From Oscillospiraceae bacterium (lineage in GTDB: Bacteria > Bacillota > Clostridia > Oscillospirales > Oscillospiraceae), in contig SVMG01000004.1 of the NCBI GenBank assembly GCA_015067545.1, forward strand, positions 1-64,000: a DNA stretch of 64,000 nucleotides, given 5' to 3'. The notes beneath the pieces were generated by a model. It ran no database searches and was not told where the DNA came from. It saw nothing but the letters and a program-made list of their open reading frames with translations. The position numbers and the translations under genes are program-made. Below are positions 3,940-23,784 of this stretch, in pieces; the stretch's first letter is position 1; the number at the start of each line of letters is the position of its first letter.

Positions 3940-4410
3940 ATGGGTTTGTGGAAAAAAATTTGCTTTTGCAGCTTGCCTCTTGTTCTGCTGTCCCTATCCG
4001 GCTGCTGCCGCGTGTTACTGCAAAAAGATCTCCGGCCTTACCGGATCATAACGCAGGTAAGTGTCGTTTATGAAAACGGAGCGCTTTCAGCGCAGCGGGA
4101 TTTTTACCGGGAAGAAAGCATCCGGCATATTCTGGATTACCTGCGCTATGTGGATCCCTACGGCATCCCCCGGGAAGACCCGGAGCTGGCCACGGGCCGG
4201 TGCTACTCGATCACACTGATCTATTCCGACGGCTCACAGCGCCTTTACGAACAGCGCGCTGACCAATATATGCGCATTGACGGCGGAGACTGGATGCGGA
4301 TCGAACCCCAAAAAGCCCTGTATCTCAGCGGACTTTTCAGCATGATGCCCAGCGATGCTTCGATAACGGATGCCGGACCCGTTCCACCGTTGATACGGCC
4401 ACAGATATAA
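3940..4410 (+). CDS. putative lipoprotein of unknown function
   Basis: MGLWKKICFCSLPLVLLSLSGCCRV lipobox signal. Confidence 0.6.
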   Translation: MGLWKKICFCSLPLVLLSLSGCCRVLLQKDLRPYRIITQVSVVYENGALSAQRDFYREESIRHILDYLRYVDPYGIPREDPELATGRCYSITLIYSDGSQRLYEQRADQYMRIDGGDWMRIEPQKALYLSGLFSMMPSDASITDAGPVPPLIRPQI

Positions 4411-4440
4411 AAGGTGCCGTTGCAATGCAACAGCACCTTT
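4408..4440. terminator. terminator hairpin between convergent ORFs
   Basis: AAAAGGTGC...GCACCTTTT inverted repeat. Confidence 0.6.
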
Positions 4441-4443
4441 TCA

Positions 4444-6321
4444 TTATTCTTCCTCGCGATTCGCATCAAACAGAGACACCTTGGTAGCCTCGCCGATTTC
4501 CCGGCCTGCCATACAGTCTTCAAACTGCTTGCCTGTCATGGTCTCGTGCTCCAGCAGGTGATCAACCACCGCCATCACCTTGTCCTCATTTGCCTTGAGG
4601 ATCTCGGCACACTGGGCATAGGCCTTGTCCACCAGGAGCTTGACCTGATCATCGATCGTTCCGGCCACCTTTTCAGAATAACTCTTTGTGGTCTGATAAT
4701 CCCGACCGATGAACACCTCACCGCCGCCCAGGTAGCTCACCGTACCCAGCTCCTCGCACATGCCGTACCGGGCCACCATATCCCGGGCCAGCTTGGTCGC
4801 CCGGTCGATGTCATTGGATGCCCCCACGGAAATATCCCCCAGGAACAGGGCCTCCGCTACGCGGCCGCCCAGCAGACCTACGATCTGCTCATACATCTGA
4901 TTCCGGGTCAGATTGAAGCTGTCATCCCTGGGAATGTGCCAAGTGGCACCCAGGCTTTGACCCCGGGGCACAATGGTGATCTGCAGCACAGGGTCCTGGG
5001 TGGGCAGATGGTACATGGCAACGGCGTGACCGGCTTCATGGATGGCAGTCTCCTTCAGGTCCTTGCGCTGACGCACGCGGCTGCGCTTTTCCGGACCAGC
5101 CAGGATCTTCATCATGGATTCGTTCAGATCCTCCATGGTCAGCACCTTGCGGTCATTCCGGGCAGCACGGATGGCCGCCTCATTCATCAGATTGCTCAGA
5201 TCCGCACCGGTGAAGCCCACAGTGGAACGGGCCACCAGCTTCAGATCCACATCGCTGTCCAGCCGTTTGCCCTTGGAATGGACCTTGAGGATATCCTCGC
5301 GGCCCTTTACATCCGGCGCACCCACATGGATCTGCCGGTCGAACCGACCGGGTCGCAGAAGCGCAGGATCGAGAATATCGGGGCGGTTGGTGGCAGCCAG
5401 GACGATAACGCCTTCGTTTTTCGCAAAGCCATCCATCTCCACCAGCAGCTGGTTCAGTGTCTGCTCTTTTTCATCATGGCCGCCGCCGAGGCCGGAGCCA
5501 CGCTTGCGGCCTACCGCATCGATCTCATCGATAAAAATGATCGCCGGGGCTACCTTCTTGGCCTGGTCAAACAGGTCACGGACACGGCTTGCGCCCACGC
5601 CCACATACAGCTCCACAAAATCCGAGCCGGAAATGGACAAAAACTGCACATCCGCCTCACCGGCCACTGCACGGGCAAGCAGGGTCTTTCCTGTGCCGGG
5701 AGGGCCCACCAGCAGCAAGCCGTGGGGGATCCGGGCACCGATCTCCTTGAATTTCGCAGGGTCACGGAGAAAATCCACGATCTCCTGCAATTCCTCTTTT
5801 TCTTCCTCCGCGCCGGCCACATCATCAAAGGTGACCTTGCTGCCGCCGGGTACGCCCAGAGTGGTGCGCGCTCTGCCAAAGTTGGCCATAGGATTGTTAC
5901 CGCCGGCATTGATCCGGCCCATGAGCAGCACCCACAGCACCAACAGGACCAGACCCACGATCAGAAGCGGCAGGATCAAATCATAGGGAGAAAACTCACT
6001 TTCCGGCAGGAAATCATAGCTTTGAAGCACACCGCTTTTGCTCTGCTCCTCAAGCACCGCCTGCATCTGCCGATGGAAGCCCTCCGGGTCTGCTAGACGG
6101 CAGGTCAGCGCGGATTTGCCTTCGTAGGAGCCATGCAGCTCCAAATAGATGGTGTTCTCCTCCACGACAAAGCTCTTCACCTGTTCCGAATGGAACAGCT
6201 CAAGCACCTGTGAATAGCTCAGATCATCCACCCGTCCGCCAAAAATTACGGTGATAATGCTAAGCAGCAGTACCAGGATGATCAGATACATCGGCACTGA
6301 TAAGAATTTACGTTTCTTCAA
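4444..6321 (-). CDS. ftsH: ATP-dependent zinc metalloprotease FtsH
   Basis: AAA motif [39 protein letters not shown] zinc site, two N-terminal TM segments. Confidence 0.97.
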
Positions 6322-15187: not shown

Positions 15188-15220
15188 AGAAAAGAAGCCG
15201 CGTTCGCGGCTTCTTTTTAT
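15188..15220. terminator. bidirectional terminator
   Basis: AAGAAGCCGCG TTCG CGGCTTCTTTTTATT. Confidence 0.75.
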
Positions 15221-15558
15221 TGTTCCTCCCGGCTATGGGTTGCCACAAAGGTTTCCAAGTTAACGGTATGGTTATATTTTACCGATGCGATTCGGTCTTT
15301 TTCCACAATCACCTTGGACAGCGGAATATCATTGAGCGCGGCAATGGCCACAATATAGTGGATCATATCGGCCAATTCGATGCCCAGCTGTTCCTGCAAA
15401 TCATTTTCATCCGATGCTTTTCTGCCGGCCCTTTTATTCAGCACCTCAGCAACCTCGCCGATTTCTTCCACCAGCTTCATGAACATTCCCTGCTCGTTTG
15501 CCCAGCCGCAATAGCGATCAGCCAGATAATCTTGCAGATCATTGATGGTAAGATTCAT
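15217..15558 (-). CDS. MazG-like nucleotide pyrophosphohydrolase
   Basis: KLVEEIGEVAEVLNKRAGRK...LGIELADMIHYIVAIA: EExxE/ExxD motif of the MazG superfamily. Confidence 0.8.
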   Translation of the reverse strand: MNLTINDLQDYLADRYCGWANEQGMFMKLVEEIGEVAEVLNKRAGRKASDENDLQEQLGIELADMIHYIVAIAALNDIPLSKVIVEKDRIASVKYNHTVNLETFVATHSREEQ

Positions 15559-15704
15559 TTTCCGTTCTCCTTTGCGGTATTGATAGAGGTTGCAGAGCGC
15601 TCCAGCTGATTAACGAGGGAATAATGGCCTTTGATAGTTTCGCAGAGTTTAATTATCTTAATGGCAAAATCCGTAGATAAATCGATAAGTTTGTTTTCTT
15701 TCAT
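15555..15704 (-). pseudogene. truncated four-helix-bundle protein (23S rRNA intervening-sequence / TIGR02436-like), 49 codons
   Basis: Hand translation MKENKLIDLSTDFAIKIIKLCETIKGHYSLVNQLERSATSINTAKENGK* matches the N-terminal third of S23 four-helix-bundle proteins (..LSxxFAxxIxxL...NQLxRSxTSI). Absent from the ORF track because it is under 60 aa; its stop overlaps the mazG start (ATGA). Confidence 0.65.
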
Positions 15705-15739
15705 AACGATCACCTCTGCGTATAGTATAACATACGGAA

Positions 15740-15910
15740 TGAAATATTGCTACGCAATATGAAATAATTCTGCGGATTATGAAATATTTTGCCTTGAGGG
15801 CAAAATGTGAAATAAAATAAATCCCCCATACGCCGCTGCGTATTTCATAGCATCAGCTATTTCATGACGCGAAGCGTTATTTCACAAATCCCGCAAGGGA
15901 TTTATTTCAT
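15740..15910. repeat. tandem array of short hairpins separated by (T)GAAAT / ATTTCA(T/C) motifs
   Basis: Stems at 15744-15760, 15764-15780, 15786-15806, 15828-15843, 15847-15860, 15864-15880, 15886-15903, plus a long-range pair 15816-15826/15897-15907. Spacers are GAAAT in the left half and ATTTC in the right half. Confidence 0.85.
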
Positions 15911-15912
15911 TA

Positions 15913-15953
15913 AAAAGAACCCACACTTGTCGTAGACAAATGTGGGTTCTTTT
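15913..15953 (-). terminator. terminator-like hairpin downstream of tRNA-Gly
   Basis: AAAAGAACCCACA/TGTGGGTTCTTTT with inner TTGTC/GACAA arms and loop GTA. Confidence 0.75.
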
Positions 15954-15954
15954 C

Positions 15955-16030
15955 TGGAGCGGGTGACGAGGCTCGAACTCGCTACCTCCACCTTGGCAAG
16001 GTGGCGCTCTACCGGATGAGCTACACCCGC
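15955..16030 (-). tRNA. tRNA-Gly (GCC), CCA encoded
   Basis: Reverse strand GCGGGTGTAGCTCATCCGGTAGAGCGCCACCTTGCCAAGGTGGAGGTAGCGAGTTCGAGCCTCGTCACCCGCTCCA. Confidence 0.95.
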
Positions 16031-22659: not shown

Positions 22660-23784
22660 ATGAAGCTGACTACAAAACAAATCATGTTTATTCTGATGTG
22701 CACCCTTTTGGTGCTGGTGGTGGTAATGGGCTCTATCGTACTCAGCCGCATCAGCGGCCTTTTTCAGCTGAGCGTGCCCAATAACACAACTGCTCCCTCG
22801 GATGTGCCGTCTTCGTCCAGTTCTGTTCCGGAATCCTCTTCTGTGATCCCCTCCTCCAGTCAACCGCCTGAGACCACCGTGCCCCATGTGCATGACTACC
22901 AGAAGGGCAAGACCGTTTCCGCCACCTGCGACACCCAGGGCTACACCCTGTATAGCTGCTCCTGTGGCAAGACCGATATCCGGGATTTCAAGAATCCTCT
23001 GGGTCATAAATACGGCGAAGCAACCGTTGTCAAGGCCACCTGTGAGACCGACGGCTACACAGAGCGCGTCTGCAGCCGCTGCCAAAAGGCGGAACGCACC
23101 AATCCCACCACCGCCGGTCACAAATTCAGCTCCTGGGCTCCCATTTCCGTATCCGACGGAACACCTGTCAACGAGCAGCGCACCTGCAGTGGCTGTAAGG
23201 TAACGGAGATCCGCAGCCTGGATACCGCAAACACTTGGGTGATCCGCAAAACCACACAGGAGCCCATGGGTGTGTATACCTGCTACAAGATCGTGGTGGA
23301 TCTTTCTGACACTGACACAGATCCCACCTATGAGCTTTACATTGGCCTGCCCAACAAGAATCTGAGCTTCGACTATGCGCAGGGCCGGCTGACTGTTCAC
23401 TACATCGCCGTGGGCGAGGACGAAAGCTACCAGGTGCCGTCCGACGCCACCGTGCTGACCATCTCTGCCGACGGCACAGTAACCACAAAGAAGCCGGGCA
23501 CAACAGAAGATCCCGATCCCAGCACCGGATCCAGCTCCGGCAGCAGCGAACCGGGTTCCAGCGCTTCCGGCTCTCAGCCCGGCTCTCAGCCCGGCTCGCA
23601 GCCGGATTCTCAGCCGGATTCTCAACCGGCTTCTCAGCCCGATTCGCAGCCTACTTCTCAGCCTACTTCTCAGCCTACTTCTCAGCCCGATTCGCAGCCT
23701 ACTTCTCAACCTACTTCTCAACCTACTTCTCAACCGGACTCCCAGCCCAGCAGCTCCGGCCCGGCTAACGAAGACGATAACTAA
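22660..23784 (+). CDS. membrane-anchored/secreted protein with Ser-rich linker and C-terminal SQP tandem repeats
   Basis: N-terminal TM MKLTTKQIMFILMCTLLVLVVVMGSIVL; C-terminal SQPGSQPDSQPDSQPASQPDSQPTSQPTSQP... Confidence 0.7.
   Translation: MKLTTKQIMFILMCTLLVLVVVMGSIVLSRISGLFQLSVPNNTTAPSDVPSSSSSVPESSSVIPSSSQPPETTVPHVHDYQKGKTVSATCDTQGYTLYSCSCGKTDIRDFKNPLGHKYGEATVVKATCETDGYTERVCSRCQKAERTNPTTAGHKFSSWAPISVSDGTPVNEQRTCSGCKVTEIRSLDTANTWVIRKTTQEPMGVYTCYKIVVDLSDTDTDPTYELYIGLPNKNLSFDYAQGRLTVHYIAVGEDESYQVPSDATVLTISADGTVTTKKPGTTEDPDPSTGSSSGSSEPGSSASGSQPGSQPGSQPDSQPDSQPASQPDSQPTSQPTSQPTSQPDSQPTSQPTSQPTSQPDSQPSSSGPANEDDN
23575..23751 (+). repeat. in-frame 12-nt tandem repeat encoding (S-Q-P-D/T/G/A)n
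   Basis: Repeated TCTCAGCC(C/T)(G/A).. units. Confidence 0.9.

Follow-up and report, generated by a model that had tools for sequence, protein, structure and literature searches.

The closest relatives of the unit described here are the intervening sequences (IVS) of 23S rRNA genes that carry an S23/four-helix-bundle (4HB) ORF. Both share a homologous small 4HB protein (PF05635), inverted repeats and the attachment to a structural RNA gene, and the Coxiella 23S rRNA IVS is considered selfish (PMC4990558). However, an IVS interrupts a 23S rRNA helix, bears a single terminal stem and is cut out by RNase III (PMC4990558), whereas the unit lies after tRNA genes and carries, besides multi-hairpin mirror arrays, a promoter-like site of its own as well as a passenger gene. 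It was not assigned to the 23S rRNA IVS, since it is found after tRNA or protein-gene ends and not inside a 23S rRNA helix. Units of a short motif plus a hairpin, arranged in inverted pairs and dispersed, are also known from the REP/REPIN-RAYT family with its HUH transposase. The unit resembles these in its inverted, dispersed motif-plus-hairpin units, but it is without an HUH protein and has instead a 4HB partner, 3+1+3 hairpins and a location at tRNA ends. Integron cassettes are single promiscuous passenger genes with attC sites, which are folded recognition sites of variable sequence, together with IntI and attI. Single passengers of integron-like content and folded sites of variable sequence also occur here; however, the array is located upstream with a dedicated 4HB gene, the loci are anchored to tRNAs, and no IntI or attI was noticed in the loci that were read. 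In type III toxin-antitoxin systems (ToxIN), too, an array of repeats stands immediately in front of the gene for a small protein, but here the array lies outside the 4HB transcript, as judged by the promoter position. Membership in this type was rejected, since the repeats form inverted halves instead of a tandem and the protein belongs to PF05635 and is not ToxN.

For one half of the array a description exists. Gut-1 is a 77-nt motif rated as certain RNA, which was reported from human gut metagenomes only and whose role is not known (Weinberg 2010, PMC2864571). The motif corresponds to one array half, with its first hairpins joined by TGAAAT spacers. However, it has been described as stand-alone, whereas the head-to-head form, the tRNA anchoring, the 4HB linkage and the multi-copy state have not been described. 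A literature search, which did not cover subscription papers and preprints, yielded neither a follow-up of Gut-1 nor a description of arrays together with 4HB genes. Only half of the DNA module was thus known before, as an orphan RNA.

The window analyzed here comprises 64,000 nucleotides from the beginning of contig SVMG01000004.1 of an Oscillospiraceae bacterium (GCA_015067545.1); its features are compiled in Table 1. A first-pass annotation had recognized seven short hairpins joined by GAAAT/ATTTC spacers, and all of these are present at 15740-15910 when read from the window sequence. The sense strand of the array folds with -54.7 kcal/mol, compared to -34.9 +/- 3.7 kcal/mol in dinucleotide shuffles (z = -5.3, 0/200). 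The hairpin array is real and far beyond chance. It had also been stated that the array is neither a terminator nor a CRISPR, with which its anatomy agrees: the constant part measures only 5-7 nt, the variable parts are hairpins and the halves are inverted, unlike the identical direct repeats and non-palindromic spacers that define a CRISPR array. The long-range pairing noted earlier does exist, albeit with coordinates that had been off by about one base, and this helix covaries in other genomes. An eighth hairpin, H0, belongs to the same unit as the seven others. By eye it is a GC hairpin followed by a T tract; a terminator scan gave only 15886-15903 (+) as terminator-like. Compared with the Rfam gathering score of 50 bits for Gut-1, the right half-array qualifies as Gut-1 (E-value from a 401-nt scan), and the left half-array, which matches Gut-1 on the other strand, stays below this threshold. 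Thus, the array of the window consists of two converging Gut-1 motifs on opposite strands. This identity had escaped the first-pass annotation, as had the anchor at the tRNA 3' end and the probable passenger role of the neighboring pyrophosphohydrolase.

Table 1. Features of the array locus and two further features of the window
Feature	Position	Strand	Details
Left-half spacers TGAAAT	15740, 15760, 15780, 15808		15808 is the central one
Right-half spacers ATTTCA	15842, 15859, 15879, 15904
Central arm	15811-15825		pairs with 15897-15911; 15 nt, 93%; alternative long-range helix around three hairpins
Left half-array, divergent Gut-1	15723-15790	+	44.6 bits, E 1e-7; under gathering score
Right half-array, Gut-1 RNA RF01706	15837-15912	-	57.5 bits, E 5.6e-11; three hairpins
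H0, eighth hairpin, terminator-like	15913-15954 (hairpin 15913-15953)	-	19-bp arms; 5' end of the element
tRNA-Gly gene including encoded CCA	15955-16030	-	Rfam tRNA 65.2 bits at 15958-16030; CCA read directly
Sigma-70 promoter of tRNA-Gly	16070-16043	-	perfect
4HB gene with in-frame internal deletion	15555-15704	-	TIGR02436 26.0 bits, cut-off 24
MazG-type nucleotide pyrophosphohydrolase, probable passenger	15217-15558	-	PF03819 22.9 bits, cut-off 22
Possible right border CCCATAGCCGG	15229-15239	-	resembles right-end motif of array-only copies; suggestive only
Group II intron domain RF00029	38-122	+	59.6 bits, at window edge
ORF with long low-complexity SQPTSQPDSQP repeat tail	22660-23784	+

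The array is followed by a 4HB gene, in which residues 1-41 are fused to the last eight residues of the C-terminus, NTAKENGK. The missing piece is seen in an alignment with the intact homologue of locus L306, where the same pyrophosphohydrolase follows. In this shortened form the gene product stays below the PF05635 cut-off (24.5 vs. 33.8 bits), while the intact homologue of locus L151 reaches 96.5 bits with TIGR02436 and 86 bits with PF05635. A related 4HB protein is of solved structure (PDB entry 2RLD, matched with an E-value of 2.9e-22). Since the 4HB gene has lost its middle, the copy of the element in the window is probably decayed. The stop codon of the 4HB gene overlaps the start of the pyrophosphohydrolase gene as ATGA, and the latter gene is patchy in the genus (8/61 genomes). 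Across genomes, a same-strand ORF was observed at the 4HB stop in 59 of 77 loci with enough downstream sequence, and 36 of these 59 ORFs show the exact 4-nt overlap. The ORFs belong to variable families (GNAT, NUDIX, MazG, ASCH, P-loop kinase, DUF4279, DUF4288, WapI-like immunity, HAD, SfsA, MGMT). Because of the ATGA overlap, the diverse ORFs at 4HB stops and the patchy distribution, the pyrophosphohydrolase is probably the passenger of the element. No transposase, integrase or reverse transcriptase is encoded within the unit.

Homologous arrays are present in related genomes: Gut-1 was found in 164 of 396 genomes (41%) sampled from the order of the window, often in many copies per genome, whereby at most about 11 candidates were scored per genome. 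In a phylum-wide sample it occurred in 3 of 300 genomes, one of which is the window's own genome and one belongs to the same order. The standard architecture, observed in 69 non-redundant arrays from fetched loci, comprises four left and four right spacers with 3+1+3 hairpins. For an array-independent test, the contigs of named genomes were scanned with the 4HB protein of a congener, which led to 80 loci, 70 of which had enough upstream sequence. In all 70, a head-to-head array lies no more than 450 nt upstream of the start of the 4HB gene, so that the suggested linkage to four-helix-bundle genes is borne out for one 4HB clade. In terms of a REPIN/RAYT system, the adjacent partner gene is a 4HB gene in 70/70 loci; this concerns the adjacent position only, and a distant RAYT was outside the scope. 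An intact same-strand tRNA gene lies just before the array in 54 of the 70 loci, and a tRNA 3' fragment in 4 more. The distance from the tRNA to the first spacer is 34-69 nt in all but one of the 54, and 12 isotypes are represented (Leu, Ser, Arg, Gly, Ala, Trp, Val, Glu, Asn, Met, Gln, Cys). When arrays were sampled first, an intact tRNA was found upstream in 32 of 67 and a tRNA fragment in 5. The genome co-occurrence of Gut-1 and PF05635 (106/20/33/137; 296 genomes) corresponds to an odds ratio of 22, uncorrected for shared ancestry. Array-only copies without a 4HB gene are common, both dispersed and in tandem, and in other lineages the element follows protein-gene ends instead of tRNA genes.

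Several single loci are recorded here as side observations. Two sequences from human faeces labeled "Bacteriophage sp." (MT835590.1 and MT835815.1; L376, L377) carry 4HB genes with arrays, one of them after a tRNA; both are unannotated, marked unverified and possibly bacterial contigs. Sister arrays of the type TGATAT/ATATCA alternate in tandem with Gut-1 arrays (L041 at 4230-5360, L030, L124), each array being followed by a tRNA T-arm-like tail; L030 is a hybrid in which a TGATAT left half is combined with an ATTTCA right half. In L070 (4100-4360), a Gut-1 array is immediately preceded by a displaced tRNA 3' fragment, beside which an integrase-like reading frame ends; this looks as though the same tRNA had been the integration site of a phage or island. 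Other 4HB lineages (L093, which is G000 C7, as well as L085, L095, L099, L102) are without arrays and have inverted repeats of microsatellite-like character on their flanks (TGGAAAATGG / CCATTTTCC, GTGCAGAATG / ATTCTGCAC), whereby several adjoin tRNA-Leu.

At its left border, the element of the window abuts the 3' end of the tRNA-Gly gene at CCA/G. The 31-nt core of H0 was found 16 times in 9 of 60 genomes, which had been picked mainly for arrays or 4HB genes; two of the 16 read back the same copy, leaving 15 distinct loci. In every copy that was read, the first spacer and hairpin of an array come immediately afterwards. Twelve loci lie behind a tRNA gene (Leu, Arg, His, Gly, Ala, Ser) with the junction CCA/GAAAA identical in all 12, two do not, and one is at a contig end. 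Since H0 recurs with the array at different tRNAs, it can be ruled out for the tRNA-linked TGAAAT family that H0 is the host tRNA's own terminator. In the lineages without tRNA linkage, the 3' end of a host coding gene itself forms the left arm of H0, with its reverse complement as the right arm. This was seen at an RlmD-like gene end (L277, L279, L284, L287) and at the end of a "..GAGNNPMVGM.." gene (L188, L253, L254), although the host sequences differ; either pre-existing hairpins were chosen or the arm was copied from the target.

Genome G358 contains near-identical, sharp-ended copies at Gly, Tyr, Leu, Gln and Val tRNAs, all starting CCA/GAAAA, and its array-only copies end at CCCATAGACA. 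The right-end motif CCCATAGACAG was found behind one passenger only, and CCCATAG as a universal right-end motif is not general. Some congeners have nothing at the same tRNA-Gly, which is occupied in G000 and G402; in G402 a complete 4HB gene follows the array. However, none of the 4HB-type copies yielded an exact empty-filled pair with a right border, and the flanks of array-only copies gave no clean pair either. The route via RNase J did not lead to an empty site, as RNase J and the tRNA-Gly-linked lipoprotein gene lie apart in the checked congener G404. In other congeners (L133, L134, L141, L145, L147, L157, L160) the tRNA-Gly locus bears an unrelated small element with an inverted T-arm GAGGCTCGAA, hairpins CAACAGTCC..GGACTGTTG plus CCGGCtgGAC, and a second tRNA 3' end, and in several cases the terminator is duplicated. 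This looks like another tRNA-3'-end element.

The spacers differ between lineages. When the sequence upstream of 4HB genes was searched for arrays of whatever k-mer, the result was 5 to 9, compared to 0 to 5 in shuffles, and there are further spacer families of the same architecture (GTGAAGT/ACTTCAC, GTGATA/TATCAC, CGATAT/ATATCG, TGAATT/AATTCA, ATGAAG/CTTCAT, ATGATG/CATCAT). Most loci of the same protein clade that were missed by the detector bear a divergent array when inspected by eye. Left and right spacers are reverse-complementary in every family. In the 4HB tree, the array-bearing lineages fall within one supported clade, and the spacer type tracks the 4HB clade with 14 label changes (all labels) versus 41.9 when shuffled. 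Such co-descent is also expected from simple linkage, but the concerted change of the spacers within an array is not explained by it.

The stems, in turn, have diversified with their pairing kept, as had been suggested. An RNAalifold consensus of 33 arrays contains 25 pairs, 15 of which show two-sided, compensatory changes. Such changes were also seen in every hairpin position tested. Each of the six outer hairpins pairs better than all 200 re-pairings, and the long-range helix beats all 100. The imperfect pairs differ between the halves: in left-half stems T.G/G.T pairs outnumber A.C/C.A pairs by 169 to 17, whereas in right-half stems A.C/C.A pairs prevail by 219 to 52. The pair adjoining the spacer contributes much of this signal. 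Since a wobble on one strand is an A.C on the other, the left units are tuned on the plus strand and the right units on the minus strand. This polarity is what would be expected of inverted repeats of one recognition unit and not of one continuous RNA, and the flip between the halves disfavors a single sense RNA fold as the selected object. Furthermore, most loci have a promoter-like site between the last spacer and the 4HB start, so that the 4HB mRNA is not expected to include the array.

The earlier suggestion of a structured mobile or RNA element is supported by the homologous arrays, the covariation and the 4HB linkage, whereby mobility is inferred from the distribution and movement itself has not been shown. 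We favor, with little more than an even balance of confidence, that the array acts in cis within a small tRNA-3'-end mobile gene-cassette element of gut Clostridia and forms a mirror-image site bound by the 4HB protein. An unlikely reading, which nevertheless has to be kept in mind, is that of a structured non-coding RNA system, in which each half-array would be transcribed as a 4HB-binding Gut-1 RNA in the manner of type III toxin-antitoxin systems. The curation of Gut-1 as an sRNA in Rfam and its rating as certain RNA (PMC2864571) would fit, as would the covarying stems and the position of the array before a protein gene. However, H0 stands between the tRNA promoter and the array, the promoter-like site of the 4HB gene comes only after it, and the halves are inverted whereas type III antitoxin repeats are tandem. 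The wobble flip speaks against a single sense transcript, but two opposed RNAs are still possible.

It might also be that the array is a passive relic, i.e., a MITE- or REPIN-like repeat at tRNA ends, with the 4HB gene and passenger linked to it only via insertion hot spots. The dispersed and tandem array-only copies and the unrelated small elements at the same tRNA-Gly in congeners point in this direction. We consider this doubtful in view of the linkage in 70/70 loci, where the array immediately precedes the 4HB start every time and keeps a shared spacing, the spacer type that follows the 4HB clade, and the ATGA coupling to the passenger. The location between the tRNA terminator and the 4HB promoter-like site would moreover allow for a regulatory leader or insulator of the 4HB-passenger operon, where the array would block or attenuate read-through from the strong tRNA promoter. 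This appears very improbable, as array-only copies without a 4HB gene are common and insulation needs neither eight concerted spacers nor mirrored halves.

In the favored reading of a mobile gene cassette, the unit consists, in this order, of H0, the mirror array (eight 5-7-nt spacers and seven hairpins), a promoter, the 4HB gene and a translationally coupled passenger. It directly abuts the 3' end of a tRNA gene, with H0 as a terminator substituting for the tRNA's own. Comparison between loci establishes this architecture, the CCA/G border, the complementarity of left and right spacers, the strand polarity of the two halves, the co-descent with the 4HB protein, the variable passengers and the dispersed and tandem copies. 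The half-arrays would represent inverted repeats of one recognition unit (spacer plus hairpin) on opposite DNA strands, to which the 4HB protein may bind; this is inferred and there are no binding data. Xanthomonas S23p is cited as a ring-shaped pentamer in PMC4990558, and, by analogy, such a ring would suit the binding of repeated units. The array may work either in the form of DNA, perhaps of single strands that fold, or through two opposed RNAs, and a function at the DNA level is likewise only inferred. Since the protein has no known catalytic center, either a recombinase of the host or of a phage or a reverse transcriptase would be needed in trans. We file the half-array under Gut-1, its protein under TIGR02436 and the complete unit among small 4HB-bearing elements, and there is a real chance that it forms a class of its own. 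That this would be an undescribed class of cassettes, defined by CCA-end integration at many tRNAs, a new terminator, a mirror array, a co-evolving 4HB protein and exchangeable single passengers throughout gut Clostridia, is a possibility that we put forward only tentatively.

With these data, the orphan Rfam family Gut-1, which has been without a function since 2010, gains a genomic context and a probable protein partner. To our knowledge, the very common four-helix-bundle family has no function assigned; with the array, in which the spacers vary jointly from one protein clade to the next, it gains a testable substrate. The spread of IVS elements that bear a 4HB gene, a long-standing question, thereby becomes experimentally approachable. 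If the unit is mobile, small adaptive genes for immunity proteins, acetyltransferases, NUDIX and MazG proteins would spread among gut bacteria via tRNA ends without an encoded recombinase.
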